A stretch of DNA of 64,000 bases. Source: a virus. The DNA lies in IMG/VR virus record IMGVR_UViG_3300050821_010968, positions 1-64,000 of that record; one strand, written 5' to 3'. Both the position numbers and the translations under genes were made by a program. Every line of letters begins with the position of its first letter. Position 1 is the stretch's first letter. This document shows, in pieces, positions 266 to 60,398 of the stretch. Below the pieces are notes generated by a model that worked only from the letters and a program-made list of their open reading frames with translations, made no database searches and had not been told where the DNA came from.

Positions 266-694
266 TTAAACGCTTTCTTTGATCGGAACGTTTTCTCGCC
301 AAACGACTTCTTCCGTCTTGGCGAGATTACGTAATGTTTCTACGGCCTGCGCACGCGAAATATTGTAGGAGCAGCGATAATAGATTGAATTACCACTGTC
401 GCGAAATATGCCATCCGGATAACACAGGTGCTCGGCCTCTATAAATTCAATGCCGAGCTTCTCGGCAAGTAATTCATCGTCCCATGTATAGGTTGGATAT
501 CCCCCTTCAGTGTCCATATTGTCGATACGGATATCAGGCCATAAGACGGCTGCGTGCCCACCAATGCATCCCGCTGTTCCACATTCCGGATTTGGATAGG
601 CCTCATCCATATTGAAATCGAGTGTTGCTTTTTCGATAAAATCGGCAAGTTCGGTAATGGCCGCAACGTTGATCACGCGAGAATCGTCATTCAT
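266..694 (-). CDS. GC(I)xGH-family protein, copy 1
   Basis: A 142-residue soluble protein. Around residues 35-50 it carries CGTAGCIGGHAAVLW, then AEKLGI and a C-terminal stretch rich in charged residues. It is a clear paralogue of the next gene upstream (687-1115), and the GCxxGH core reappears in the tandem pair at 59606-60398. The ATG at 694 overlaps the upstream stop and has GGAGG about 8 nt before it; longer starts would run deep into that gene. Small phage proteins with a CGTxxCIxGHA pattern are widespread but, as far as I know, uncharacterised. The paired Cys and His could bind a metal. Confidence 0.75.
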   Translation of the reverse strand: MNDDSRVINVAAITELADFIEKATLDFNMDEAYPNPECGTAGCIGGHAAVLWPDIRIDNMDTEGGYPTYTWDDELLAEKLGIEFIEAEHLCYPDGIFRDSGNSIYYRCSYNISRAQAVETLRNLAKTEEVVWRENVPIKESV

Positions 695-1115
695 CTTGGA
701 AGCCCTCCGGAATTCCATCTGGAAACTGACGCCACACAACTTCTCCAGTTCGAGCGAAATTGCGCAGCATATCGACGGCACTTTCTCTGGATACTTTTGA
801 ATAATTGATATATGTTCCAGTATCACTGAAACATGATTCTTCTTCGTCATCGCCGGGATAACACATTGCACGATGCGCATGCCAGCTTATGCCGAGCTTC
901 TCTGCAAGCGCCTCGTCTTTCCAGCTATAACCAGAATCGACGCCCCAATTGTTGTCGCGGATATCTTCCCATAAGACTGCTGCGTGTCCGCCAATACATC
1001 CTGCGGTACCGCAGTGAGGTTTCGCTGTCGGTTGCGACATATCGAAACTATATGTTGAACTTGCTATAAAATCAGCAAGCCAGTTAATAAGTGCAACGTC
1101 GCGTTCGTCTTCCAT
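687..1115 (-). CDS. GC(I)xGH-family protein, copy 2
   Basis: A 142-residue paralogue of the downstream gene, sharing CGTAGCIGGHAAVLW, EALAEKLGIS, an MCYPGDD segment and a C-terminal LRNFARTGEVVWR. The two copies are adjacent and in the same direction, as expected from tandem duplication. The ATG at 1115 follows the rtcB stop by one base (TAATATG), so it is cotranscribed with the RNA ligase. Function unknown. Confidence 0.75.
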   Translation of the reverse strand: MEDERDVALINWLADFIASSTYSFDMSQPTAKPHCGTAGCIGGHAAVLWEDIRDNNWGVDSGYSWKDEALAEKLGISWHAHRAMCYPGDDEEESCFSDTGTYINYSKVSRESAVDMLRNFARTGEVVWRQFPDGIPEGFQDE

Positions 1116-2332: not shown

Positions 2333-2387
2333 GAATCTATCTGTCGAATTCCCCGACAGGTAAACCATTTTCATTCTGGACTGTCAA
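2333..2387 (-). promoter_or_regulatory. class I promoter of rtcB with palindromic operator
   Basis: On the minus strand a perfect -35 TTGACA (2387-2382) is followed by 17 nt and a -10 TTTACC (2364-2359). Immediately after it lies the palindrome TGTCG-N7-CGACA (2358-2342), and 4 nt further a GANTC site (GATTC, 2337-2333). The start codon follows at 2328. The palindrome covers the expected start of transcription, so a bound protein should block or modulate initiation. Confidence 0.8.
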
Positions 2388-2390
2388 CCT

Positions 2391-2669
2391 TCAGGGACGC
2401 CCGGCGCTTTCCAGCCGACTTTTGATGCGGGAAGCTTGCCCTTCCATTGCCTTGAAGAGAGTCTGGAACTCCGCCCGGAGCGCTGGGTTGAGGACATCGA
2501 GAGATGCAAGAGCGCCAACCTCCTCGGTCAGCGATTGCGTCCGCTCAAGCGCAGCCCGCGCAAGAACGAGAGCTTCTTCACGGGCCTCATTGAGGAGAGC
2601 ATTCACATCGGCGACGGATTTTCGGGAAGTGACGAGCGTTGGTGCAGGCATGGCTGACTCTATTTGCAT
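2391..2669 (-). CDS. small alanine-rich helical protein
   Basis: A 92-residue protein rich in Ala, Glu and Leu, predicted by eye to be almost all helix with heptad-like spacing (ALLNEAREEALVLARAALE), so possibly a coiled coil. The ATG at 2669 lies 2 nt after the previous stop and has AGGGGA upstream. Last gene of the operon that begins at 6548; the rtcB promoter starts just beyond it. Function unknown. Confidence 0.75.
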   Translation of the reverse strand: MQIESAMPAPTLVTSRKSVADVNALLNEAREEALVLARAALERTQSLTEEVGALASLDVLNPALRAEFQTLFKAMEGQASRIKSRLESAGRP

Positions 2670-7694: not shown

Positions 7695-8238
7695 CGATAC
7701 CGTAACTGAGAAGTGCCTGTATATGCAGCCTCAAGCTTTCATAGCCGTAGCAATGAATGTAGCCCGGCCCCTTGGTAACATCTTCGGTAAAAAGTTTGAC
7801 GGCGTCTTGTGGAATATCGGACTGATCCCATTCCACATTGATGACGCGTTTGCGCCACCCGAGCTTGATCATCCCTCGCGTCGTCGTGACGAGAAACCAT
7901 GGATGCATCTGGCCGTATATTTCATCGGACGAAAAGTATTCATTCGGAACGGCTTTCGCGTAGATGAGATGGCCTTCGAATGCCGCGAGGAGTTGGGCTT
8001 TCTCCTCGGCGCACGCTGCGATCACCTTCGGGTCTTCGCGGTAAGTGCGTCCTCGGATAATATTTTCGATGGCTTCGACATGCGATCTGATCGCCCAGCG
8101 ATCTTCGTTATCGAGTTCGCGTTGCGTGTACGCAATCTCGATGTTGATTCCGTACCCACCTCCGCCAAGTCCGCCCCAGCTTTCGCCCCATATGAAGTCT
8201 TTGTAGACGAGGCCGTTCAAATTCCTACTTTCATCCAT
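7678..8238 (-). CDS. hypothetical protein
   Basis: A 186-residue acidic protein with a glycine-rich segment WGGLGGGGYG near residue 22, then a helical middle and a C-terminal mixed domain. I chose the ATG at 8238 (MDESRNLNGL) because AAGGGGAAG stands 5 nt upstream and it clears the previous gene; the frame from 8319 would overlap that gene. No family recognised. Confidence 0.75.
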   Translation of the reverse strand: MDESRNLNGLVYKDFIWGESWGGLGGGGYGINIEIAYTQRELDNEDRWAIRSHVEAIENIIRGRTYREDPKVIAACAEEKAQLLAAFEGHLIYAKAVPNEYFSSDEIYGQMHPWFLVTTTRGMIKLGWRKRVINVEWDQSDIPQDAVKLFTEDVTKGPGYIHCYGYESLRLHIQALLSYGIDAKKD

Positions 8239-8252
8239 GTCGATTCTTCCCC

Positions 8253-8951
8253 TTATACTTTTGCCCACCGGCCAAGTTGTTTGCCTTTCGGCTCGATCCA
8301 GTGCAGCGTCTGTTTCCATTTTGCCAGACGGCCTTCCTGCCAGTTGATATAATACTGCGTACTCTTGATACTATGATCCCTATTGGCGAGTTCGCGTTCT
8401 TTCAGATTGTCGAAACTGGGCATCGAATAGTACCGAAAGAAATCCTTGTTCGCTTCTCTCAGTTCGTCGAAATTCTGACGATTGATAATGAAGCTTTTCA
8501 TCTTTCCACGTTCCTGCAAATTTTCAGATTCTTTCATCACGTGGATTGCAATTTCTTCCGCAGCGATCTTGGCGCGTCCCTTGATCATATTTGCAACACG
8601 TTCTTTGCTGCCAGCGATTTCTTTGACGAGATCGACACACGACTCCTCAAAAGGCGCTTTGCGTGCGCCCCAGCATGAGGCCGTTTGAAAGCCATCACCG
8701 GGACGTTCATATCCGTGATGGGCAATCGTGCCTGTATTGGCAAGAATCGGTCGCGCACAGATTTGGCACGTCAGCGCTTTTGCGTCGCGTTCCGCTTTGA
8801 GGAGCGCCAATTCTTTCGCGCGCGCTTCTTTCTTGGCTGCGCGTTCGGCTCCGGCTTGTTTGCGTGCGGCTGCATCGTCGATGCCCTGCGCCTTAAGTTC
8901 GGTGACGCGTTCTCTGAATTCTTTCCAATTGTCGCGCCTGTATCCGAACAT
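8253..8951 (-). CDS. treble-clef zinc-finger protein with helical tail
   Basis: A 232-residue protein. Residues 1-60 are a charged Ala/Lys/Glu helix. Then come CQICARPI, IAHHGYERPGDG and SCWGARKAPFE, a Cys-His-Cys pattern (C-x2-C...HHGYxRPG...C) also seen in unannotated proteins of large plasmids and phages. The rest is helical. It begins 26 nt after a class II -10 box, with GGGAGG before the ATG. A nucleic-acid-linked role is plausible but not shown. Confidence 0.75.
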   Translation of the reverse strand: MFGYRRDNWKEFRERVTELKAQGIDDAAARKQAGAERAAKKEARAKELALLKAERDAKALTCQICARPILANTGTIAHHGYERPGDGFQTASCWGARKAPFEESCVDLVKEIAGSKERVANMIKGRAKIAAEEIAIHVMKESENLQERGKMKSFIINRQNFDELREANKDFFRYYSMPSFDNLKERELANRDHSIKSTQYYINWQEGRLAKWKQTLHWIEPKGKQLGRWAKV

Positions 8952-8976
8952 CGGCACCTCCCTCGTTGATGAGGAG

Positions 8977-9019
8977 CTTATAAGAAAATCTCACGGCATT
9001 GTCAACCCATGAAAGCCAA
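8977..9019 (-). promoter_or_regulatory. class II promoter at the divergent switch
   Basis: Minus strand: TTGGCTTTCATGGG, then the -35 TTGACA (9005-9000), 17 nt, and a near-consensus -10 TATAAG (8982-8977). It drives 8951-7395 leftwards, while the gcrA promoter 50 nt away drives rightwards. This is the best -10 of the class. Confidence 0.8.
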
Positions 9020-9069
9020 TGCGGAAAAATCGAGACTTTGGCTGGAAATTTACCCGTAAAAATAGGGGC

Positions 9070-9114
9070 TTGACCGAATCTCCGGACCTGCTATGAATCC
9101 CGACAGGTCGAGTC
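9070..9114 (+). promoter_or_regulatory. class I promoter of gcrA
   Basis: The -35 TTGACC (9070-9075) is followed by 16 nt and the -10 TATGAA (9092-9097). Only the right half-site of the palindrome is good (CGACA, 9101-9105). Three GANTC sites are nearby: GAATC at 9076 in the spacer, GAATC at 9095 overlapping the -10, and GAGTC at 9110. GANTC over core promoter elements is how GcrA/CcrM-dependent promoters look in Caulobacter, so autoregulation is likely (inference). Confidence 0.75.
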
Positions 9115-9125
9115 GGAGAATAAAT

Positions 9126-9647
9126 GTGACTGCCACGAATTGGACGGACGCACAGGTTGCAATCTTGCGCGAGCTATGGCCCACGAGCACATCGGCGACC
9201 GATATCGGAACCATGTGCGGGAAAACCAAACGGGCGGTCATAGGTAAAGCAGACCGCCTCAACCTCGGAGAAAAACTCCAGCGCAATCTTCACAAGCAAC
9301 GCCCAAACGCGCGAAAGAAAATCGTACCTACTGTCGAGGCTCAGATTTCCGTAGAGCCCGCCGAAGAAAAAGAAGAGGACGAGGATGATTACGGGTTGCC
9401 AAAATTTTCTGTTGACGTGTCAACGGACGCCGATCCTGATTTCCCAGTGACGCTGGAACAGCTTGAGCATGGGATGTGTCGTTGGCCGATTGGAGATTCG
9501 CAAACCGAGGATATTCGCTTTTGTGGGCAGTCGAGTAGAGGAAAGCCTTTCTGCGACTCACATGATGCAAAAGCCTATACGCCGCATCGTGGAAAATCGG
9601 CAGCATATTCTCCTCCACGGCAGCGACGTTTCGGAGGTTACCGGTGA
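9126..9647 (+). CDS. gcrA: GcrA-family cell-cycle/methylation-dependent regulator
   Basis: GcrA proteins bind sigma70-RNA polymerase and stimulate promoters carrying CcrM-methylated GANTC sites in Alphaproteobacteria. Residues 4-40 (TNWTDAQVAILRELWPTSTSATDIG...AVIGKADRLNLG) match the N-terminal helix-turn-helix domain. Near the end, MCRWPIGD and FCGQSSRGKPFCDSHDAKAY match the conserved C-terminal domain that contacts sigma. The middle is a Lys-rich then acidic linker. At 173 residues it has normal length. I placed the start at the GTG 9126: it follows GGAGA and begins with the family's usual WTD stretch, whereas the ATG at 9093 lies inside the -10 box. Its stop overlaps the next start (GTGA). 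Confidence 0.93.
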   Translation: MTATNWTDAQVAILRELWPTSTSATDIGTMCGKTKRAVIGKADRLNLGEKLQRNLHKQRPNARKKIVPTVEAQISVEPAEEKEEDEDDYGLPKFSVDVSTDADPDFPVTLEQLEHGMCRWPIGDSQTEDIRFCGQSSRGKPFCDSHDAKAYTPHRGKSAAYSPPRQRRFGGYR

Positions 9648-12080: not shown

Positions 12081-12383
12081 ATGCTCGTCGGAATTCTAGG
12101 GGGAATTTGCGTTATTGAGGCTTTCGTCCTCATAATGAATTATTTCCAACTCCGGTCATGTGTGCAAGCTTTTATCGAGATAGAGCAGTCCGTCCGCAAA
12201 GTCATGGCGTTGGCCTTAGAAGAAGAAAATTTATACCTTGCAAACATTACACACCATAAAGAACAGAATAGTTTTTTAAAGAACGACATGCTCGTCGAAC
12301 AGAAAAAACGTCTTGCGGCTGAGAAACGTCTCGCCGAACTACTCAAAGAATCACAACCCAAACAAGAGAAGAAAGCACCATGA
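12081..12383 (+). CDS. membrane-anchored coiled-coil protein
   Basis: A 100-residue protein with one N-terminal hydrophobic span (about residues 3-21, LVGILGGICVIEAFVLIMN), followed by a long charged helix to the end that is likely to form a coiled coil. The overall shape resembles an inner-membrane spanin-like or scaffold protein, but it lies far from the lysis genes, so no role is assigned. Starts one base after the previous stop. Confidence 0.7.
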   Translation: MLVGILGGICVIEAFVLIMNYFQLRSCVQAFIEIEQSVRKVMALALEEENLYLANITHHKEQNSFLKNDMLVEQKKRLAAEKRLAELLKESQPKQEKKAP

Positions 12384-13072
12384 GCGAACAAGCTTGGGGG
12401 CATGGAGGCTTGCGTGGTTGGGGGCCATACGAACTCATGTTGCGAGAACACGCGCAGGAGAGATTTGTCTCTGCGATCCGTTCCACTCTGCTCCAACTGA
12501 ATAGTGCATGGAATTTCGACCGGGTTGAAGGTCCGATACTCATGCCGCGCTCTTTTATCAGCCCGTCCTATGACGGCGATGATGTATGGCTGCTTCAGGC
12601 GAAGCTGGGAGAAGACGAGGCTGTTCTGCGTCCCGAGACTACAGCGTACAGCTACGAAGCCGCAAAGACGTTGCTGATGCGTGGTGATCGCAAAATGCCT
12701 CTGTGTGTCTGGCAAGTCGGCAAGTCATTTCGGCGCGAACAGAGCGATGGGGCGACCGCTGCGAAATTGCGCTTTTACGAATTCACACAATTGGAATTCC
12801 AGTGTCTCTATTCACCAAGAACACTCGCCGATTATCGTTCAGCGGTCGTCGAGCAGATGTACAATACGATTGCCAGTCTCACACATCTCTCAACGCGGTT
12901 CGTGACAAGCGACCGTCTTCCATCCTATTCGACGAAAACGGAAGACGTTGAAGTGGAATGGAATGGACGGTGGACAGAGATGTGCAGTATCTCCGACCGT
13001 ACAGACTATCCGGATGCCAAGGTTTTAGAGGTCGCCATCGGGCTAGACCGGATCGTGAGTTGTCACGGATGA
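12380..13072 (+). CDS. class II aminoacyl-tRNA synthetase core, glycyl-tRNA synthetase-like
   Basis: A 230-residue stand-alone catalytic core. It shows LRPETTAYSYEAAKTLL (83-99), like the LRPETAQG segment of dimeric GlyRS; WQVGKSFRREQ (111-121), which is class II motif 2 with the ATP-binding Arg; RFYEFTQLEF (131-140), like REFTQAEIE of GlyRS; and AIGLDRI (219-225), motif 3. There is no anticodon-binding domain, and GlyRS is normally about twice as long. Such paralogues (HisZ, AsnA, PoxA types) often lose aminoacylation or act on other substrates, so the product may charge, edit or modify something other than tRNA-Gly. ATGA overlaps link it on both sides. Confidence 0.88.
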   Translation: MSEQAWGHGGLRGWGPYELMLREHAQERFVSAIRSTLLQLNSAWNFDRVEGPILMPRSFISPSYDGDDVWLLQAKLGEDEAVLRPETTAYSYEAAKTLLMRGDRKMPLCVWQVGKSFRREQSDGATAAKLRFYEFTQLEFQCLYSPRTLADYRSAVVEQMYNTIASLTHLSTRFVTSDRLPSYSTKTEDVEVEWNGRWTEMCSISDRTDYPDAKVLEVAIGLDRIVSCHG

Positions 13073-31183: not shown

Positions 31184-31332
31184 TGTGGACGCATCACGAA
31201 ATTTACGAAGACGAGAACAAGAAAATGCGGGACTCCAGCAACGATCCATACTGTCCGGTCTGCCATTGTCATAACTGGCATGGCGTGCGCTGTTACGAGC
31301 GCAAGGGCGAACCTATCGAGGAGTCTCGATAA
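31183..31332 (+). CDS. small zinc-binding peptide (49 residues)
   Basis: A 49-codon frame (MWTHHEIYEDENKKM...) with CPVCHCHNWHGVRC, Cys/His-rich and probably zinc-binding. Start linked to the previous stop (TGATG). Confidence 0.65.
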   Translation: MWTHHEIYEDENKKMRDSSNDPYCPVCHCHNWHGVRCYERKGEPIEESR

Positions 31333-31333
31333 T

Positions 31334-31933
31334 ATGCAATTCTCGACAGTTTATTTTCTTCCGGCGCGCTACGAGACGACGCTGTATGCGCGCGATCTCG
31401 CTCATGCCCACGAACTCATTGGCGAACGTGGAATGCGTGAAATGATCTTGCGGGAATATCCGCATCCGGTTCTGCTCCCCTCAGATCACATCTATCAATG
31501 GAACTTCGCCTCGGCCATCCATTCTTCATGCTGGCTTGGAATGATCGCGTGCAAATCGCGGAGCGTCTCCGGCTTCGATATGATGCACGATCAGGGACTG
31601 CTTCATCTCGTGGCGCATCTCGGTACGCAGCGCAAGGAAGATTTGACAGTCAATTTGACCGACAAGCGCTGCTGGATGATCCTAAGCGCCTATTGGACAG
31701 CATGCGAGCTTGAGCAAATCACGCCCGGCTTTTCCCGCTGTCCGGGAGACGAGATCGTCCTTGAGGAAACTGCACCCGTAGGCATGATCGATCTGGCAAA
31801 ACGGGTGCAAAAATATGTTCCGGATTGGTATGCAACCAATTGCCCTTTCAATACGGAATATGCCACACTGATTCCTGCACAAACTGGTTCTAAGAGGGGC
31901 AGCCATGACGAAACAAATTCCACAAAAAGCTGA
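31334..31933 (+). CDS. hypothetical protein, paralogue of 33388-34029
   Basis: A 199-residue protein. It shares with the protein at 33388 the order TTLYARDL/TTLFARDI, then AIHSSCWLGMIACKS/AMHAACWLGMIATKC, DQGLLHLVAHL/DLGIVHQLAHC and PGFSRCPGDE/PGMWPCDEED. The pair flank four small genes, so a block duplication is likely. Start at 31334, two bases after the preceding stop. Function unknown. Confidence 0.75.
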   Translation: MQFSTVYFLPARYETTLYARDLAHAHELIGERGMREMILREYPHPVLLPSDHIYQWNFASAIHSSCWLGMIACKSRSVSGFDMMHDQGLLHLVAHLGTQRKEDLTVNLTDKRCWMILSAYWTACELEQITPGFSRCPGDEIVLEETAPVGMIDLAKRVQKYVPDWYATNCPFNTEYATLIPAQTGSKRGSHDETNSTKS

Positions 31934-33387: not shown

Positions 33388-34029
33388 ATGCTCTTCATGA
33401 CTCAATATCGCGTTACTCCGCTGAGTGAGTACACGCCTAGTATAACCGGCACGACGACATTATTCGCACGAGATATCTTTGAAGCCGAGCAGTTCGTGAA
33501 GCAGCGCAATCTTGGCGAGGCGCTCTGCACTCGGCTAACCGACCATTCCATGCGTCCTTTTCTGTGTTCTGAACTTATTCGTCGATTCGAAGTCGAGAAG
33601 GCCATGCATGCCGCGTGCTGGCTCGGCATGATCGCGACGAAGTGTGGACTTTCCGAATCTCGGTCGTTGCTAGACGACCTCGGCATCGTTCATCAACTGG
33701 CGCACTGTATCGAAGAAAAATATCTCGGTCGTTATTACTTTCCAGCCTTGAATGCGCTTTATCCCAATGTCGCCAAACTCGAACAACGTGTTCCGGGAAT
33801 GTGGCCTTGCGATGAAGAAGATTTTCTTCTGGAAGACCGCCAGCGCGCGATGCTTCAAAGCATTACTGAGAGTGTCTTCAAAATTTCTCCTTCTGATACG
33901 GTGATAGCAGAAGATATGCAGGCGACAGACAGGATGGTGCGCAAGATCAGAACGCTGGTCGGAAAGACCAGCACCGAGGCTATTATCGATTCCGTTGACG
34001 AGGAACTGGTGGCAGCCTTAAAGGCTTGA
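33388..34029 (+). CDS. hypothetical protein, paralogue of 31334-31933
   Basis: A 213-residue protein sharing the AACWLGMIATK core and flanks with the 31334 protein. An in-frame ATG three codons later is an equally possible start. The last codons overlap a class I promoter. Function unknown. Confidence 0.72.
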   Translation: MLFMTQYRVTPLSEYTPSITGTTTLFARDIFEAEQFVKQRNLGEALCTRLTDHSMRPFLCSELIRRFEVEKAMHAACWLGMIATKCGLSESRSLLDDLGIVHQLAHCIEEKYLGRYYFPALNALYPNVAKLEQRVPGMWPCDEEDFLLEDRQRAMLQSITESVFKISPSDTVIAEDMQATDRMVRKIRTLVGKTSTEAIIDSVDEELVAALKA

Positions 34030-36953: not shown

Positions 36954-38168
36954 ATGTTCGCCACATTCAACACCTTCATTCAGCATAATCCTTTCGTCGC
37001 AGGGGGTATTGGCGTTGCGGCTGCCGGATGGATCATGGGGAACATTAAAGAAGCTCCAAAAAATCTCTGGCGGCATATCAAAGGACAATTGACAGTCAAA
37101 CTGACCGTCTTCTCGGAAGACAATTTCTTTTCTTATTTGAACCAGTATCTCGCGGAAGACCCGTGCGCATATAAAGCTCGTAAACTTGCCATCTCAGAAT
37201 TCTGGGACGAAGAGAATGAAAAACGTCGTTCGGTCGTCTCGCCGGGTCCCGGAACACACCTGATCTGGCGCGGATGGCGTCCGTTTCTTGTCGCCCGCGA
37301 TCTCGATGACAAAGAAGGAAAAGGCGGCGATGGATACAGTCGCCGCAAGCAGACAATTTATATCACGACCCTAGGTCGAAAGCAGGACGCAATTCGAGAA
37401 CTTATTTCCAACGTCTACCAGCACGTGCAGCAATGTGATGACATTCCAATATACATGTGGAATGGGATGGAATATTACCTCATGGATCGCCGTCCGAAAC
37501 GGAGCTTTGAAACGGTTTATTGCGCGCCGGGCGTGAAAGAATCTCTTCTCAAGGATGTCCAGAAGTTTCATAATAACCGCGATTGGTATTCCGTACGTGG
37601 AGTTCCGTATCGAAGAGGTTACCTTCTCGAAGGCCCTCCCGGAACCGGTAAGACAACACTCATATATGCCATTGCTAGCGCTACCGAGAAGCCTATCTTT
37701 CTCGTCAATCCGGCTACCATGGACAATGACAACCAGCTACAGCATGCTTTCAGCGCTGCGAAAGACGGCTACCTCGTGATCGAGGACATCGACAGCATCG
37801 GCGTCACAGAAGACCGTGCGACACGTGAAAAACCCCTGACGGTCGGCAGTGCCGCGAAGAGTGGCATTACACTCTCGGGGCTTCTGAATGCTATAGACGG
37901 CATTGCAAGCCGCGAAGGCCGCGTCTTGTTCATCACCTCGAATACGCCTGACAAGCTCGATAAAGCGCTTCTGCGGGATGGTCGTATCGATAAGACAGTC
38001 CATTTGGGACCGGCTGACGCGTGTGTCGCAGTGCAGATGTTCGAACGTTTCCATCCGATGAAGGATCAGGAGAAGTTCTTGTCAGAATTGCAGGCCTATA
38101 AAGCACTCCCGATGCCGCAGGCTGAAATCCAGAATTATTTACTTTCGCGAGAGGACTTGGTGGCATGA
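36954..38168 (+). CDS. BCS1-like AAA ATPase, membrane anchored
   Basis: A 404-residue protein. One N-terminal membrane span (about residues 11-29, NPFVAGGIGVAAAGWIMG) precedes a BCS1_N-like region ending VRGVPYRRGYLLEGPPGTGKTT (Walker A at 227-234). Walker B is VIEDIDSI (E277-D280); SNTPDKLDKALLRDGRIDKTVHLG is the BCS1 sensor and arginine finger. Mitochondrial BCS1 moves folded Rieske protein across a membrane; bacterial relatives are little studied. Here it may act on folded proteins at the inner membrane. AAGG precedes the ATG. Confidence 0.92.
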   Translation: MFATFNTFIQHNPFVAGGIGVAAAGWIMGNIKEAPKNLWRHIKGQLTVKLTVFSEDNFFSYLNQYLAEDPCAYKARKLAISEFWDEENEKRRSVVSPGPGTHLIWRGWRPFLVARDLDDKEGKGGDGYSRRKQTIYITTLGRKQDAIRELISNVYQHVQQCDDIPIYMWNGMEYYLMDRRPKRSFETVYCAPGVKESLLKDVQKFHNNRDWYSVRGVPYRRGYLLEGPPGTGKTTLIYAIASATEKPIFLVNPATMDNDNQLQHAFSAAKDGYLVIEDIDSIGVTEDRATREKPLTVGSAAKSGITLSGLLNAIDGIASREGRVLFITSNTPDKLDKALLRDGRIDKTVHLGPADACVAVQMFERFHPMKDQEKFLSELQAYKALPMPQAEIQNYLLSREDLVA

Positions 38169-39878: not shown

Positions 39879-40099
39879 GTTTAAGCGATTTGATATGCTT
39901 GGTCATGTCGATGATTGCATTCGGTTTGGGGCTGCATGTTTTCTTCGACCGTCCAGTCCGCAAGACACTTATAGCGTATGACCGCTGTCCGCATGCGATT
40001 CTTCACAGAGTTGCTTCTGATTTTTCATTTGATTCGGACCTCTACAGTTGTGGTGCCTGCGATGCCACATTCAGGTTACCGATGGTCGAGGAACTATGA
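39875..40099 (+). CDS. small membrane protein with zinc-ribbon-like tail
   Basis: A 74-residue protein: one N-terminal span (SDLICLVMSMIAFGLGLHVFF) and a C-terminal CPHAI...CGACDATF that may bind zinc. Coupled to its neighbours by ATGA overlaps. Function unknown. Confidence 0.66.
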   Translation: MSLSDLICLVMSMIAFGLGLHVFFDRPVRKTLIAYDRCPHAILHRVASDFSFDSDLYSCGACDATFRLPMVEEL

Positions 40100-41223: not shown

Positions 41224-41387
41224 TGAATGAGAATTCCATCCGACAACTCAGTATGCTGAGAGCGTCGATGGAAAAACATGTAGGAAATTTGTCAACCTCT
41301 ATTGCGGACCCAGACCGAATCGGTGAGATTAGACGCTGGATAGTCACTGTGGAAGAAGTAATTCGGTCATTGAAGGTGAAGAAGTGA
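41223..41387 (+). CDS. small helical protein (54 residues)
   Basis: A 54-codon frame (MNENSIRQLSMLRASMEKHVG...) of helical, charged character. It is linked to its neighbours by TAATG at the start and GTGA at the end, which supports translation. Confidence 0.65.
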   Translation: MNENSIRQLSMLRASMEKHVGNLSTSIADPDRIGEIRRWIVTVEEVIRSLKVKK

Positions 41388-42247
41388 GTTTCAACGCCCC
41401 CGAACTCCCACGTGAAGTCTACGGCGAAGCTAACATCCGCCTCGGCCAGATCGAAGCCGAACATAACGTCACGGTAGTCTTCGCCGTCGAATCCGGCAGC
41501 CGGGCATGGGGATTTCCTTCGCCGGACAGCGACAACGATGTGCGATTCTTCTTTGTGCGCCCGCTTTCCAGATATCTCGCGCTCGACGAGCCAGAGGACG
41601 TGATCGAACAGCCTATCACAGGCGTCTGGGATATCAACGGCTGGGATTTGCGTAAGGCGCTCCAACTGCTCGTCAAGGGGAATGCTACGGTCGCTGAATG
41701 GCTGTCATCGCCGCTGATCTATCGTGAGCATGGGCCGCTACCATATCGTCTGCGCGATCTCATCAAACGGTATGCGTCGCCGGAGGCGTCGGCGCGACAT
41801 TACTGGGGACTGACGAATACTTGTTATCAAAAAGAATTCGCCAATCGTCCAACCGCTGCATACATGGAAGAGTTGCGTCAGTCAGGCAACACCATCAAAG
41901 GACTGACGACCGTCAACCAGAAGAAATATCTTTACGCGATTCGCGGATCGCTTTCTATCCAGTGGATCAAGCGTTACGGCGAAGTCCCTCCGATGACACT
42001 TCCAGCGCTCATGTCGCATGACATCATGGCGCTTGAAGTGCGTGATGAGATCAATGCGCTTTTGAGGCGTAAAGCGATCACGGGTGAAATCGGGGAAGGG
42101 TCGCGTATTGCGGTCCTCGACGACTTCATCGAGGAATCTATTACGTGGGTCAAGGATAACGGTATGGACAAGCTGCCGGTCAATCCGAAATTCAAGATAG
42201 AAGCAAATCAATTGCTTCTCGATGCGATGGGAGTCGGTGGTGGCTAA
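41384..42247 (+). CDS. YcgL-type nucleotidyltransferase (COG3541)
   Basis: A 287-residue protein. AVESGSRAWGFPSPDSDNDVRFFFV (34-58) carries the polymerase-beta signature GSxxxG...DxDVR. PITGVWDINGWDLRKALQLL and NATVAEWLSSPLIY are typical of COG3541 proteins. The substrate of the family is not known; genomic links to RNA repair have been suggested for some nucleotidyltransferases of this type. GTG start in a GTGA overlap; its stop is overlapped by the first of five tandem paralogues. Confidence 0.88.
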   Translation: MSFNAPELPREVYGEANIRLGQIEAEHNVTVVFAVESGSRAWGFPSPDSDNDVRFFFVRPLSRYLALDEPEDVIEQPITGVWDINGWDLRKALQLLVKGNATVAEWLSSPLIYREHGPLPYRLRDLIKRYASPEASARHYWGLTNTCYQKEFANRPTAAYMEELRQSGNTIKGLTTVNQKKYLYAIRGSLSIQWIKRYGEVPPMTLPALMSHDIMALEVRDEINALLRRKAITGEIGEGSRIAVLDDFIEESITWVKDNGMDKLPVNPKFKIEANQLLLDAMGVGGG

Positions 42248-42536
42248 GCTCACAAAGAAGGCATTTCAGGAGTGGCTACGCGATCATCCCGACGATGAAT
42301 TCGAAGGCCGCAATGGATGTAATTGTCCCGTAGCAAAATATTTGCGGGATACGACGCGAAAAGAGTATTTCGTCGGTATCGACGAGTTTTATCTGGATGA
42401 TGTCGAAGAGCGTAAAAAGCGCCACGACCTGCCTATTTGGGCCATGCGCTTCATCGAGAAAGTCGATAAATTCCATGACATGGTAAGGAAGATTTCCGGT
42501 GAGAAATGTCTCATCCTTCTTGAGGAATGCAAATGA
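42240..42536 (+). CDS. tandem paralogue family, member 1
   Basis: A 98-residue protein: KKAFQEWLRDHPDDEFE, CNCPVAKYL, LPIWAMRFIEKVD, then CLILLEEC. It shares the family plan FxxWL...F...CPLAxFL...LPxWAxxFVxKID...CLxILE with the next four genes. The GTG at 42240 overlaps the nucleotidyltransferase stop. Function unknown. Confidence 0.75.
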   Translation: MAKLTKKAFQEWLRDHPDDEFEGRNGCNCPVAKYLRDTTRKEYFVGIDEFYLDDVEERKKRHDLPIWAMRFIEKVDKFHDMVRKISGEKCLILLEECK

Positions 42537-42826
42537 TCAAAATCAACAAAAGCAGCTTTCGTAGCTGGCTGAAGAACAATCAGAAGTTGAAATTCAGGCC
42601 CAGTAATTACTGTTACTGTCCGCTCGCCACGTTTCTTACGATTAAAAGTGGTAAAGTGTACAAGGTAGGGAAAACTATCTGTTGGACGGAAAACATGACA
42701 TTGGGAGTGCACTTGATGCCGGACGAGCTTCCTCAATGGGCGATAGACTTTGTCGAAAAGATCGATAAAAGCGAGGCTGAATACGTGACATCTACGCGCT
42801 GCTTGAAAATCCTCGAACAGGTTTAA
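42533..42826 (+). CDS. tandem paralogue family, member 2
   Basis: A 97-residue basic protein: SFRSWLKNNQKLKFR, YCYCPLATFL, LPQWAIDFVEKIDK, RCLKILEQV. ATGA overlap with member 1. Its CYCPLATFL core is closest to members 3 and 5. Confidence 0.78.
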   Translation: MIKINKSSFRSWLKNNQKLKFRPSNYCYCPLATFLTIKSGKVYKVGKTICWTENMTLGVHLMPDELPQWAIDFVEKIDKSEAEYVTSTRCLKILEQV

Positions 42827-42830
42827 GTCA

Positions 42831-43133
42831 ATGAAATACGCGAAGCTTTTAGGTCCTATCAGCAAACGTGCTTTTAAAAAATGGTTGCAAGAGCATAGCA
42901 CGCTGAAATTCCAAATTTACAATGCATGCAACTGTCCGCTGGCGCAGTTTTTGTCAGATACCCGGCAGGAGAATTATTTTGTTGGAAACCGCACTTTTTA
43001 CCCGAAACAGATGGGTGCATTCAATATACAGCCCCTTCCGAAATGGGCGCGAGATTTTGTCGAGAAAATCGACAGCAGTATAACTCCTACCTTTGGAACA
43101 CGACGCTGCTTGAATGTTTTGGAAAAGCTATGA
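42831..43133 (+). CDS. tandem paralogue family, member 3
   Basis: A 100-residue basic protein: AFKKWLQEHSTLKFQ, CNCPLAQFL, LPKWARDFVEKIDS, RCLNVLEKL. It starts 4 nt after member 2, with AGGTTTAAG upstream; this is the only pair in the array without overlap. Confidence 0.78.
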   Translation: MKYAKLLGPISKRAFKKWLQEHSTLKFQIYNACNCPLAQFLSDTRQENYFVGNRTFYPKQMGAFNIQPLPKWARDFVEKIDSSITPTFGTRRCLNVLEKL

Positions 43134-43438
43134 CGGAGCCACAAGAGCTTGCACCGATCTCCTATGACGCTTTTCGCACGTTCCTCAGTATCGACTCAGG
43201 ACGCAAATTCCCGATGCGTCAGTGCTCGAAGTGCGCCATTGCGTCTTTCCTGAAGGAAGTACATTCCATCGAATGCGCGGTCGGTAATACAGCAATCTGG
43301 ATCAAAAGCGAACTTGGCGCAGCGCTACCCGATTGGGCACAAAAATTCGTACGCGCCGTGGATACAAAGTTCTTCAGTGCGGCCCATGCGACGGGGGCAG
43401 AGTGTCTTGCAATTCTGGAGGAAATCGATGGCACGTAG
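43130..43438 (+). CDS. tandem paralogue family, member 4
   Basis: A 102-residue protein: AFRTFLSIDSGRKFP, CSKCAIASFL, LPDWAQKFVRAVD, ECLAILEEI. Most divergent member: the CPLA core is CAIA and an extra CxxC is formed. ATGA overlap with member 3. Confidence 0.75.
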   Translation: MTEPQELAPISYDAFRTFLSIDSGRKFPMRQCSKCAIASFLKEVHSIECAVGNTAIWIKSELGAALPDWAQKFVRAVDTKFFSAAHATGAECLAILEEIDGT

Positions 43439-43724
43439 ATTGACACTAAAGAAATTTAGGGAATATCTCGAAGATCGTCCGGGTCTAGAATTTGACATGA
43501 GAGGTTCTCATGCGAGGTCCTCGTGGTGCCCACTTGCGACGTTTTTAACGACTACGACTGGACAACCTCATTCCGTAGACGGATACATATATTGGGACTG
43601 GCATGCCGACAAATCAGGAAATCTGCCGCCTTGGGCAAATAAATTCATAGCAAAATTCGACGCGTTAGGGGCCGGAAAATTTACAGCCAGCAAATGTCTG
43701 AAAATTTTAAAGGAAGTCGCATGA
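43428..43724 (+). CDS. tandem paralogue family, member 5
   Basis: A 98-residue protein: KFREYLEDRPGLEFD, WCPLATFL, LPPWANKFIAKFD, KCLKILKEV. It overlaps member 4 by 11 nt, with GGAGGAAATC upstream. A longer frame from 43314 lies wholly inside member 4 and is rejected. Confidence 0.78.
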   Translation: MARRLTLKKFREYLEDRPGLEFDMRGSHARSSWCPLATFLTTTTGQPHSVDGYIYWDWHADKSGNLPPWANKFIAKFDALGAGKFTASKCLKILKEVA

Positions 43725-44059
43725 CACGCTACTTCACAAGCTTTACCAACGAATACACAAATCACGTCATCATGCATGGTGTCTCCGACGAACGCGCGAT
43801 GCACTTCGAGATCGGAGGCGACGGTATCACATATACAGTCGATATCACGCGGAGGGAAGCGGTCGAACTCAGTCGCCTCATACAATATCTGCTCGATGAT
43901 CCTGATCCAGCCGTGATGGCGGTAGGAAGCATCAGGTCTCCAGAGACCGAAGACGACGCCGTGATGATGGCACTTGTCGCGACAAACTGGCTTCGCGATC
44001 ATGCACCGCATCGGCTGACCGAAGAAGGTCAGAAACTCCTGTTTAAAACATCGGAATAG
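43721..44059 (+). CDS. hypothetical protein
   Basis: A 112-residue protein (MTRYFTSFTNEYTNHVIMHG...) with a beta-rich first half and a helical second half. ATGA overlap with member 5 of the array. Function unknown. Confidence 0.72.
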   Translation: MTRYFTSFTNEYTNHVIMHGVSDERAMHFEIGGDGITYTVDITRREAVELSRLIQYLLDDPDPAVMAVGSIRSPETEDDAVMMALVATNWLRDHAPHRLTEEGQKLLFKTSE

Positions 44060-44062
44060 AAA

Positions 44063-44416
44063 ATGAACTCTCTCCCAATCAAAGAAACTCTGCAAAAAGC
44101 TCTCGCCATTCTGGATGACGAGAGTCATTGGACAAAACGTGCAAGCGCACGCGATGCGGCAGGGAGAAGTGTAGATGTACTTTCAGGAGAAGCTGTCAGC
44201 TTCTGCCTGATTGGCGCGGTATCCAAAGCACTAGATACCTATCCCGGAGTTACGCAACTGAGCACTGAGTATCAGATATGGAATGTGCTTCTCGAAGCCG
44301 TCCGCAGTAAATATCCTAACCACAGTGCCAGTAGTTTCAATGATAATCCCCGCACAACGCTTCAAGATGTCCACACTATCTTGAAGGTAGCTATTGCCTC
44401 TAAGGAAGCTGCATGA
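44063..44416 (+). CDS. DUF6197-like protein
   Basis: A 117-residue protein. It has an N-terminal helix with LQKALAILDDESHWTK, AVSFCLIGAVSKAL in the centre and a closing TLQDVHTILKVAI. The W...A.g...fC.iGA...A...D...l..A order resembles DUF6197 proteins of phages and actinobacteria, of unknown role. Confidence 0.72.
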   Translation: MNSLPIKETLQKALAILDDESHWTKRASARDAAGRSVDVLSGEAVSFCLIGAVSKALDTYPGVTQLSTEYQIWNVLLEAVRSKYPNHSASSFNDNPRTTLQDVHTILKVAIASKEAA

Positions 44417-48375: not shown

Positions 48376-49614
48376 ATGACGCGCTACATCGATTTCAGGC
48401 ATTGCGACTGGATGTTCAAGCCTGACATCTCCAAGATCATGGATACATTGGAGAATGCCAGATTTGTGGGTGGCGCTGTGCGTGATTCGGTGCTCGGGCT
48501 TCCGATCAGGGATATCGATCTGGCGACGCCTATGACACCTGATATCGTTTCGCTCAAGCTTCAGGCAGCCGGGATCAAGGTGATTCCTACCGGCCTCCAG
48601 CATGGCACGGTGACCGCCATCTGCGGAAACACATCCGTCGAGATCACGACATTGCGCCGCGATACGGCAACAGACGGGCGACACGCGACCATCGAATTCA
48701 CGGAAGACTGGGAAGAAGATGCGGCCCGGCGTGACTTCACGATGAATGCTCTTTATGCCGATAGAGATTGTCGTCTTTACGACTATTTCGATGGGTATGT
48801 CGATGCACGGGGTGGCATCGTTCGGTTCGTTGGTGATCCCACAAAACGCATTCAGGAAGACTATTTGCGCATCTTGAGGCTGTTCCGTTTTCACGCCTCT
48901 TATGGATACGGGGCGATGGACCCGGACGCGCTCCGGGCTGTCGTGCGCGAACGGGATGGCCTCGTGAAAATCTCGGGCGAACGAATTCAGGCAGAACTTT
49001 TCAAGACACTTGCAGTTGCCGATCCGATCCATGCGATTCGCCTCATGCGTATCAGCGGAGTTCTCGGACAATTTGTGCCGGGCGACATCCAAATGGACAA
49101 TTTTGAGCGCCTCGTCGATAACGGCGAGACCGATGTTATTCTGCGGCTGGCATCACTGATCGGGTCCATTGAGGACGCTCAGTATGTTACCAGCCGGTTG
49201 CGATTTTCCAAGAAAGACCGCGAACGTCTGGAAGGATTGCTTGGTGCGTTTCCGCTGATCAACGTCTGGCAGTCCATCGAGAAAACCAAGCGTCAAATCT
49301 GCAAGATGGGCAATCAACGCTTCCGCGATCATTGCGCACTTTTCCGTGCCGCCGATCCCGTCGAAGACAATGATGCGAACTGGCATATTCTGATTCGTTT
49401 CGCAGAGACGTGGACACCTCCGGATTTTCCGATCAACGGCGATATGATTATCGCGGGCGGTATCAAGCCGGGTAAAATTGTTGGCGCTATTCTCAACGAT
49501 ATCAAAGAATGGTGGATGAACAACAATTTTCCCGTAGATTCTTCTCTTGTTGCCTACATGCAATCGCGGATTAAGTTCGCAGCGAAGACACTGGCGATGG
49601 AGGATTCCGTATGA
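48376..49614 (+). CDS. tRNA nucleotidyltransferase / poly(A) polymerase family (CCA-adding type)
   Basis: A 412-residue protein. RFVGGAVRDSVL (29-40) and IRDIDLAT (44-51) hold the active-site GG and DxD; TTLRRD and ARRDFTMNALY are motif B and C regions; and RILRLFRFHASYG is the conserved helix of class II enzymes. These enzymes add CCA, or only A, to tRNA 3' ends without a template. Sequence alone cannot tell CCA- from A-adding or poly(A) activity. With RtcB and Pth2 it forms a tRNA-maintenance set. GAAGGG precedes the ATG. Confidence 0.93.
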   Translation: MTRYIDFRHCDWMFKPDISKIMDTLENARFVGGAVRDSVLGLPIRDIDLATPMTPDIVSLKLQAAGIKVIPTGLQHGTVTAICGNTSVEITTLRRDTATDGRHATIEFTEDWEEDAARRDFTMNALYADRDCRLYDYFDGYVDARGGIVRFVGDPTKRIQEDYLRILRLFRFHASYGYGAMDPDALRAVVRERDGLVKISGERIQAELFKTLAVADPIHAIRLMRISGVLGQFVPGDIQMDNFERLVDNGETDVILRLASLIGSIEDAQYVTSRLRFSKKDRERLEGLLGAFPLINVWQSIEKTKRQICKMGNQRFRDHCALFRAADPVEDNDANWHILIRFAETWTPPDFPINGDMIIAGGIKPGKIVGAILNDIKEWWMNNNFPVDSSLVAYMQSRIKFAAKTLAMEDSV

Positions 49615-54203: not shown

Positions 54204-55439
54204 CTATTTCCGTGTTGCTCGGAGAAGCTCTTTCATACGGGACTGACGCCCAACCTTGGCAGGCTGCTGTCGAGTGCGATACTTGCCCACCAGACAGATC
54301 GCGCATTCTGAGTAGTCGAATCGTGCAAGCGTGCGCGCGCACTCCAGCGCTTCTTCCTTAGTGTCGAACGCATACCAGACCGTGCGCTTCTGCACGCCGG
54401 GACGGCGTCCGCGCCCACGCTGGCAATTCCGACACGTGCTCAAGTGAAGCTTGGCTTCGGGCTTCACCGGGTCGAACATGACGAAGTGGGGCTTGTTCGA
54501 TTCTTCGCCCTCGCTAAGTGGCGTATAGGCTTGCGTGGACGTGATTTGTTTTACCTTTGGCTCGGCGCGTCCGAGCCAGTAGGTTTCGATCTCGTCCAAC
54601 AGATCATCATACGTCCAGACTCGATTTGTCACGCCTGCTTTCATGGCTGGAGTAAGAGAACACTCAGCCTTCCCCAAACCGGCATGCGCCTTCACAAAGT
54701 TGTAGTACGCGACGTAGATCGCCTGCGCGTGGCAATGGTTTTCGAACTTCTTGGAAAACCTGTATGTCCTTCGGTTGAAGCGGCTGATGTAATTGCGGAT
54801 CGTTCCGTTGTGCCTCTCAACGTAGCTCGTGGATGCTTTCAGAATCTCATCAGCATCGGCCTTGAGCGAGTATTTCTTGATGCCATATACGGTCACGAAG
54901 CTGTCACCGGTTTCTCGGTCCCACCCGCCTTTCATCTGTTTCTTAAGAATGACGTGCTTGGCGTTTGAGCCAAAAGCATCGTCGATTATGCGTGGATAAA
55001 CACTAAATGAATCTGTCGCGATAACCACGGGACCGGGAATGCGATTTCGTAAATCGCGAAAGAATTCTCGTCCAGTTGTGACATCACGTGTGCCAATGCG
55101 GACACTGACAAGGAGTTTGCTGTCAGGATCGATTGCGACCCATGACCACGCGTCCCCCACATGCTTGGGCTTGAAATTTTTCGGAAATTTGCACTGCCCG
55201 GCCATATATTGCTTGGCGTAGCAATATGACCAAATCTCGTCGGCTTCGATTCGTTTCGTGAGGTTGAGGCCGCGTACCTCCCTGTCATGGACATAGGCGA
55301 GTGCTTCGCCATTCATAGCAAGATGTCGCCGGACTGTGTTCATTGAACAGCCGGTAATTTCCGCGATGCCCCTGATGCCGTTATTGTTGCAGATCAGAAT
55401 GAGTATTTCGCGCCGCTTGGCTCTTGAAAGTTTTTTCAA
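54204..55439 (-). mobile_element. IS1-like DDE transposase with a C-terminal Cys extension
   Basis: A 411-residue protein. Residues 5-40 are a helix-turn-helix (RREILILICNNNGIRGIAEITGCSMNTVRRHL). The catalytic core has EADEIWSY (first Asp), ATDSFSVYPRII (second Asp) and SYVERHNGTIRNYISRFNRRTYRFSKKFENH, the VERxN...RRxxxxxxFSKKxENH signature of IS1-family transposases with the last Glu. About 95 extra C-terminal residues contain CRNCQRGRGRRPG and CAICLVGKY, which standard IS1 transposases lack. TTG start with GAGGG upstream. I could not find matching terminal inverted repeats, so this may be a domesticated or immobile copy. Confidence 0.85.
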
Positions 55440-59371: not shown

Positions 59372-59613
59372 CCGCGAAGCAGAAAATCCCGGTCGATCAC
59401 GTTGACGGCGTCACGGAATACGAACTCGTGACGCCTCCGTATTACGACTTCAATTTCGAACGCTTCATGGCGTCCGTCAGCACGGAGCGCGGACTTCGCT
59501 TTGTTACGTGCTCGATGATCGAGGACAGCGGTAAAGCTGTTTGGGTGTTCTTGGTGCATATCGAGACCGGATTTCCACCGGGACCGGCAAAAGAGGAAAT
59601 GCAATATGTATAA
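59368..59613 (+). CDS. small protein, paralogue of 61544-61801
   Basis: An 81-residue protein. The core YELVTPPYYDFNFERF...FVTCSMIEDSGKAVWVF matches YEVATAPYYCAEHNRF...IVCSMIDPSGKCVWAF in the 61544 protein. Function unknown. Confidence 0.7.
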   Translation: MTAKQKIPVDHVDGVTEYELVTPPYYDFNFERFMASVSTERGLRFVTCSMIEDSGKAVWVFLVHIETGFPPGPAKEEMQYV

Positions 59614-60019
59614 AGCCCGTTTGCGCAAAGCCATCGCATTTATTAGGACTCTCGATTATGAAAACATCAATATGGTGATTTTTTCGCCTACTCTTGTGTC
59701 GCAAAAATGCAAATTTATCGGTTGTGCTGTCGGACATATGGCACACAAGAAAGTTTTCGAGGGTCTTAAATTAGACAACAACACGGTTACCTATAAACGC
59801 GCGCGCAATATGGAGGCGGTTGAGAAGTTGTTCGGACTCAAGCACCACGAAGCTATTTATCTCTTCGGGCCGTTTTGGGGCAGCTACGAAAAAGGTACGC
59901 AAGAACCTACTCCGAAAAATATTGCCAGACGTATTGAACGCTTTCTGGTAAATCCGGAGCAACCGGGTGTTGCAAAACTCATTCGCCGCGCTGATTTGAT
60001 GGGAGAATATCATGTATAA
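59606..60019 (+). CDS. GC(I)xGH-family protein, copy 3
   Basis: A 137-residue basic protein: MYKARLRKAIAFIRTLD, FIGCAVGHMAHKKVF, AVEKLFGLKHHEAIYLFGPFWG, TPKNIARRIERFL. The core matches its neighbour (60012) closely, and the GCxxGH plus the later LGL...LF segment link it to the pair at 266-1115. It overlaps the previous gene by 8 nt. Confidence 0.74.
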   Translation: MYKARLRKAIAFIRTLDYENINMVIFSPTLVSQKCKFIGCAVGHMAHKKVFEGLKLDNNTVTYKRARNMEAVEKLFGLKHHEAIYLFGPFWGSYEKGTQEPTPKNIARRIERFLVNPEQPGVAKLIRRADLMGEYHV

Positions 60020-60398
60020 AGTCCGTTTGCGCAAAGCTGCTGCTTTCACCAAGACCATCGATCCGAACTCATTCATCATGACGGTCTTCAGCGGAAGCTG
60101 GGCATGTGGTTTTGTCGGATGTGCGATGGGCCACATGGCGCATGCAAAAGTCTTTCGCGGATTGGTTATGCGTAACGCTATAATCGCTTACAAAGGGCAA
60201 TTCGGTATGGATGCTGTCCGGGAATTGTTCGGCCTCAAGAGAAGCGAAACTTATTATCTGTTTGGGCCTTCATGGGAAATCTATGATCGTGCTTTGCCTG
60301 ATGTAACTCCGAAAAATGTTGCGCGTCGTATAGAGCGGTTCATTGCCAATCCTGAAATTGCCCGTGTTGATCAACTCTTGCATTTGGATGAGTACTGA
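60012..60398 (+). CDS. GC(I)xGH-family protein, copy 4
   Basis: A 128-residue basic protein, tandem copy of the gene before: MYKVRLRKAAAFTKTID, FVGCAMGHMAHAKVF, AVRELFGLKRSETYYLFGPSWE, TPKNVARRIERFI. It overlaps copy 3 by 8 nt. Function unknown. Confidence 0.74.
   Translation: MYKVRLRKAAAFTKTIDPNSFIMTVFSGSWACGFVGCAMGHMAHAKVFRGLVMRNAIIAYKGQFGMDAVRELFGLKRSETYYLFGPSWEIYDRALPDVTPKNVARRIERFIANPEIARVDQLLHLDEY

Follow-up and report, generated by a model that had tools for sequence, protein, structure and literature searches.

A five-gene tandem array in a large phage represents an uncurated, recurrently tandem family of small proteins

The array and its conserved core

The window analysed in this study is a stretch of 64,000 nucleotides (IMG/VR record IMGVR_UViG_3300050821_010968, positions 1 to 64,000) which forms part of a virus record of 156,272 bases. 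Its plus strand carries, at positions 42240–43724, five consecutive genes, here termed c1 to c5, whose products are 97–102 aa in length (Table 1). The genes lie within a run of overlapping small genes that are probably translationally coupled. Purine-rich stretches are located 5′ of most of the array starts, the clearest being that of c5, and the number of promoter-like sites in the region (11) is close to the expectation from shuffled sequence (mean 8.0, sd 2.8). The nucleotidyltransferase gene which an earlier note on this DNA had placed directly before the array was confirmed by Pfam as a member of the RlaP family. For the gene that follows c5, a PADLOC match to JetA3 (E 0.018) was discounted as weak.

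Table 1. Genes of the array region, with positions given in the window.
Feature	Position	Strand	Remarks
RlaP-family nucleotidyltransferase (PF10127)	41384..42247	+	directly upstream of the array; Pfam E 1.7e-66
c1	42240..42536	+	98 aa, pI 6.3; GTG start; 8-nt overlap with the RlaP gene
c2	42533..42826	+	97 aa, pI 9.3; ATGA overlap with c1
c3	42831..43133	+	100 aa, pI 9.8; 4-base gap after c2
c4	43130..43438	+	102 aa, pI 5.3; ATGA overlap with c3
c5	43428..43724	+	98 aa, pI 9.4; 11-nt overlap with c4; GGAGG 5′ of start
Gene after c5	43721..44059	+	ATGA overlap with c5; outside the array family; product unannotated
DUF6197 (PF19698) protein	44063..44416	+	downstream, same strand as the array; Pfam E 1.9e-16

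The earlier note had described the array as five tandem diverged paralogues, a description borne out by the coordinates, by leave-one-out profile searches and by comparison of a DNA pattern with shuffled sequence. Each copy, when omitted from the HMM, was recovered at E values of 1.6e-15 to 3.2e-25, the best ORF outside the array scoring 0.6–1.7 among the 1,616 six-frame ORFs of at least 50 aa in the whole record, and profile searches of all 156,272 bases revealed no sixth family member. A degenerate DNA pattern for CPxAxFL...LPxWA, itself derived from the array copies, matched five times in the window, in every case within the array, and was absent from 100 dinucleotide shuffles. Alignment of c1–c5 yielded 16 invariant columns, and all five proteins contain F..(W/F/Y)L, C-x-x-A-x-x-L, LPxWA..F(V/I)...D and a terminal CLxxL. 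The chain of consensus motifs that had been proposed is consequently real, with the correction that c4 carries CAIA in place of CPLA, and that FxxWL reads FxxFL in c4 and FxxYL in c5. Elsewhere the copies are, as had been stated, very different, with pairwise identities of 25–40% at the amino acid level and 36–51% at the nucleotide level (10 pairs).

The Pfam cut-off was reached by none of c1–c5 and by none of 12 family members scanned, and the NCBIfam cut-off by none of c1–c5 and the outside member L001. The sole Pfam line for the five copies was a sub-cut-off match of c2 to PIF2 (E 0.058), and none of them matched DUF6197 (PF19698), the domain encoded downstream, at E ≤ 1.

Several other features of the window were noted. 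Two further tandem paralogue pairs are located at 687–1163 and 266–880 (both minus strand; 50% identical, with a CGTAGCIGGHAAVLW motif) and at 59606–60019 and 60012–60398 (plus strand; 52% identical, with an F[IV]GCAxGHMAH motif), neither of which has a Pfam match at E ≤ 0.1. Two diverged plus-strand paralogues (31280–31933 and 33388–34029; 27% identical) both match one gene beside RlaP in G002, an IMG/VR record of 225.6 kb. The all-against-all scan for paralogues does not provide a fair count for the record, its overlap filter having replaced c1–c3 by a longer opposite-strand shadow ORF, and the array appears in it as a pair. A possible RNA-handling set (48376–49614, 12380–13072, 1117–2328 and 41384–42247) is composed of a PolyA_pol/CCA-type protein, a short class II tRNA-synthetase-like protein, a protein which we take to be RtcB-like, and RlaP. 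The AAA protein encoded at 36954–38168 (plus strand) combines its AAA domain with a BCS1 domain at the N terminus (E 2.2e-17) and has homologues in G002 and the phage CcrColossus, and an IS1-like transposase (PF03400, E 3e-6) is present inside the phage record at 54204–55439 (minus strand).

Distribution of the family

The array is carried by a large phage that has genes in common with the alphaproteobacterial jumbo phages of the Dolichocephalovirinae. Its RlaP is 69–73% identical to the homologues of CcrColossus, CcrPW, Gurke, Domovoi and Bambus, Dolichocephalovirinae of Caulobacter and Brevundimonas (n = 5 aligned). Employing tblastn at E ≤ 1e-5, with shadow frames counted, 51 ORFs of the window matched G002 (220 kb of which was used) and 27 matched CcrColossus, which identifies the phage as a distant relative of this group; megablast of window positions 40000–64000 against phage records gave no match. 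The five-copy profile detected no family match in CcrColossus, CcrPW, Gurke, Kikimora, Domovoi and Bambus, nor in the IMG/VR records G002, G003 and the more distant G004, whose RlaP is only 36% identical to that of the window. A 26-member profile, for which 23 other records served as positive controls, was likewise without a match in G002, G003, CcrColossus, Gurke and Domovoi. In G002, RlaP (7745–8575) is followed by a nucleoside deoxyribosyltransferase homologue (8795–9241) with no array, the next larger gene after RlaP there being a homologue of one that is located upstream of RlaP in the window. Since the eight phages searched that possess an RlaP 66–73% identical to that of the window lack the family (further Brevundimonas phages lay outside the search), the array looks lineage-specific and accessory. 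The earlier note had named single conserved copies in all relatives, with no sign of fast change, as the finding that would count against its interpretation; the related phages searched hold no copy, and most of the unrelated-looking records with the family hold one.

Relatives of the array proteins were found in 22 other IMG/VR records and in one Pelagibius MAG by means of DNA-pattern scans, in which a site was accepted when the whole motif chain was read in its translation. The first scan of viral contigs returned 11 stretches, of which six were accepted and five rejected; the second returned 30, four of them already known, and the 26 new loci contained 27 sites, 17 of which were accepted and ten rejected. 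A scan of genome contigs returned 23 stretches, 22 of which were rejected, the accepted one being that of the Pelagibius MAG. The Pelagibius genome contains one strong family match, and among the candidates scored in 385 alphaproteobacterial genomes (at most 12 per genome) the matches were that of Pelagibius itself and one weak partial match (E 0.005). The 26-member profile matched 23 of 28 virus records, with five copies in the array phage, two each in the L108 and L103 records and one in each of the other 20, among them L099, discussed below, and L106, in which two matching pieces constitute one gene. Both two-copy records hold tandem pairs, that of L103 being located at 2018–2416 and 2341–2643 (both minus strand) in a virus record of 17.6 kb. 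These counts are neither complete nor independent, because the records were chosen for holding the family, many of them are fragments, and L110, L119 and L123 represent the same protein.

Searches of phage records by tblastn at E ≤ 10 gave no matches with L001 and L022 as queries and weak matches with c1, c3, c5, L029 and L041. Of the four weak matches examined, those to MT835740 and Microbacterium MCubed were rejected as the motifs are absent, and that to Aristophanes as it lies antisense to its gene; the fourth (E 6), Guey18 gp10, is a protein of phrog_19191.

This PHROG, which occurs in the Gordonia phages Guey18, Keelan, RobinSparkles, Yvonnetastic and others and has no annotated function, is the nearest named relative of the array family. 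In direct HMM searches c1 was the only one of the five copies to match it at E ≤ 1 (E 0.022, sub-threshold), three of 12 early family members did so (best E 0.021), and the model found nothing in the whole phage record at E ≤ 10, a loose level at which it also matched in four of 14 control genomes. In profile–profile comparison the CPxA...LPxxAxxFVxxxD core proved homologous: when 26 family members were aligned with 11 proteins of phrog_19191, hhalign returned a probability of 96.3 and a score of 51.9, and 200 column shuffles scored no higher than 15.9. The corresponding values were 95.0 and 46.1 in another comparison (maximum 17.9 in 200 shuffles), 94.1 and 43.6 when the one member found via c1 was removed, and 88.5 and 36.8 for the five window copies alone (maximum 19.8 in 150 shuffles), and profile A5 against three Guey18 proteins alone gave a weak probability of 38.8. 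The Gordonia set was filtered on the CP motif, which constitutes a mild selection bias, and all ten Gordonia proteins submitted match phrog_19191 independently. The two groups are bridged by L099, which matches both phrog_19191 (E 6.7e-10) and the family profile (E 4.8e-6).

In Keelan, gp76–78 are three adjacent phrog_19191 genes (MN586014, 41040–41921), and tblastn listed four places in this record; Guey18 contains the adjacent pair gp83–84, with gp10 elsewhere, and RobinSparkles the adjacent pair gp110–111, with the motif-bearing gp108, assigned by motif rather than by PHROGs, close by. With one Gordonia phrog_19191 protein as query, tblastn at E ≤ 1 found 30 places in 24 Gordonia records. 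The wider family is tandem in six records viewed, namely the array phage, L108, L103, Keelan, Guey18 and RobinSparkles, of which Keelan and Guey18 both belong to Ronaldovirus, and the five-copy array is the largest tandem run among the records viewed. The family of the array is real, uncurated and recurrently tandem, and no account of it was found in the portions of the literature examined on such small-protein arrays and on phrog_19191.

Predicted structure and origin of the copies

An AlphaFold2 model of c3, computed with 11 relatives, reached a mean pLDDT of 87.6 and a pTM of 0.80, and its predicted order of elements is helix, strand, CP-helix, two strands, short helix, LPxWA helix, strand and final helix; the model of L099 was poor (pLDDT 59.7). 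Foldseek comparison of the c3 model with the PDB gave no match at E ≤ 0.001 (best E 1.9), which does not show a new fold, the best Z in VIA-align was 2.7 among 152 chains, and a PDB sequence search with profile A5 gave no match. In a viral structure library the 99-residue protein A0A7S5R9V9 was matched at E 1.1e-4, other viral matches, including Streptomyces and Gordonia phage proteins, being below significance. Across 26 aligned members the residues F15, C35, L69, P70, W72, A73 and D81 are invariant; they are mostly hydrophobic or helix-capping, the only polar candidates being C35 and D81. Apart from F15 these residues were part of the search patterns, so that their conservation is in part built in; the near-invariant L19, L94 and L97, like F15, lay outside the patterns.

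NG86 analysis yielded dS values for only two of the 10 pairs, both above 2 and near saturation, and none for the other eight; at such dS, the dN/dS ratios were approximately 0.33 for c1 with c5 and 0.21 for c2 with c3. The diversifying selection invoked in the earlier note thus received neither support nor contradiction from this analysis. A closely related array for allelic comparison was not found among the records searched. In a 12-member tree all nine inner branches were without support, and c1–c5 formed one group in 2% of bootstrap trees. The five genes most likely represent an old expansion of one small accessory protein family by tandem duplication. That separate family members were acquired one after another at a single site appears a decidedly less probable origin: the failure of the tree to recover the window copies as one clade is in keeping with it, as is the identity of c4 and c5 (29%), which is no higher than that of c5 and the outside member L029 (33%), but identities within the array (25–40%) are for the most part higher than the 20–33% measured against seven outside members, and c1–c5 have the C-terminal CLxxL and similar details in common.

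Proposed function and comparison with known systems

Our tentatively preferred explanation is that the array proteins are non-enzymatic binding modules, derived by an old expansion of one accessory family, whose copies have different and likely host partners. Each protein would be a compact, helix-rich cytosolic module in which the core (FxxWL, CP-A, LPxWAxxFV...D and the final helix) is retained for folding; the surface varies between the copies, which therefore probably have different binding partners. That the invariant residues are mostly hydrophobic or helix-capping, and that the pI of the copies ranges from 5.3 to 9.8, fits a single scaffold with varied surfaces better than a set of five enzymes; against this, a catalytic or metal-binding role is conceivable for the invariant Cys and Asp. 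The likeliest partners would be host proteins met soon after infection, in host takeover or defence: host proteins, defence proteins included, are the likelier candidates because the family is patchy and accessory, and partners met early would in turn explain why it is sparse, patchy and sometimes multiplied.

The earlier note had proposed anti-defence proteins, superinfection exclusion factors or decoys, roles for which no support was obtained. An anti-defence function of the array is plausible in general terms, although a dedicated array, with every copy directed against its own host defence system or variant of one, seems to us rather unlikely. The small, diverged and clustered genes resemble the AcrID1 clusters that have been described (PMC11065993), and the patchy distribution of the family would fit such a role, but no positive-selection signal was measurable by NG86, synonymous sites being saturated, no anti-defence gene was recognised among the neighbours scanned, and none of c1–c5 matched PADLOC-DB at E ≤ 1, the last being weak evidence as this library holds defence-system proteins and is not a catalogue of inhibitors.

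The genomic neighbours of single-copy members may count against host partners and point to a role internal to the phage, in which the proteins would assist replication or recombination as small accessory partners of proteins that process DNA, and would have multiplied without acquiring new targets. A RecT-like gene lies beside L115, a ParB-like gene beside L041, and integrase- or primase-like genes near others (identified by eye); the neighbours nevertheless vary from record to record across the 17 loci viewed, and the family's absence from those related jumbo phages that were searched means that it is not core machinery of their group, so that we regard this role as unlikely. A functional unit with RlaP, in RNA repair or of a toxin–antitoxin-like nature, is highly improbable: the genes overlap on the same strand and the phage also encodes the PolyA_pol/CCA-type protein, but the adjacency looks incidental because, of the 23 virus records in which the family occurs and many of which are fragments, only one encodes RlaP, and because no array was found in the relatives with RlaP that were searched. 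The interpretation in the earlier note is supported in part: the paralogues are tandem and strongly diverged, are built on one conserved scaffold and are absent from the eight RlaP-sharing relatives searched.

What had been a nameless series of 'hypothetical proteins' is thereby defined as a family that has a predicted fold, relatives in various phages and a few tandem arrays open to side-by-side testing. Should the copies of the preferred binding-module explanation bind different host proteins, the array would provide a ready panel for discovering new alphaproteobacterial host targets or defence systems; should they not, a coherent family missing from the annotation libraries searched has still been delineated. 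Its patchy occurrence across various viruses, usually single and sometimes in tandem, may point to a reusable means of managing the host cell. It is possible, though doubtful, that the CPxA...LPxWA proteins and phrog_19191 together form one uncurated superfamily, a general scaffold for host-directed inhibitors that has repeatedly been multiplied in tandem.

Among known systems, the AcrID1 clusters of rudiviruses are similar in that several copies of a small viral protein are encoded close together, 26 of 35 AcrID1 homologues being so placed in four rudiviruses (PMC11065993); AcrID1 is a known inhibitor, whereas the array proteins are known from their sequence, and no relation in sequence or fold is claimed. 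The Dolichocephalovirinae phages CcrColossus, CcrPW, Gurke, Domovoi and Bambus resemble the array phage in the upstream RlaP and differ from it in the absence of the array family. The proteins of phrog_19191 possess an N-terminal MxVxVTQxDI and a C-terminal PFxFE, in place of which the array family has the FxxWL helix and the terminal helix; by alignment and by reading, the VxVTQxDI and PFxFE elements are absent from c1–c5, and because the two ends differ the family is filed as kin of phrog_19191 and not as a member. What unites the two groups is a CP[ILV][AS] helix followed, in the same order, by an LPxxAxxFVxxxD helix, together with the occurrence of their genes in tandem runs.
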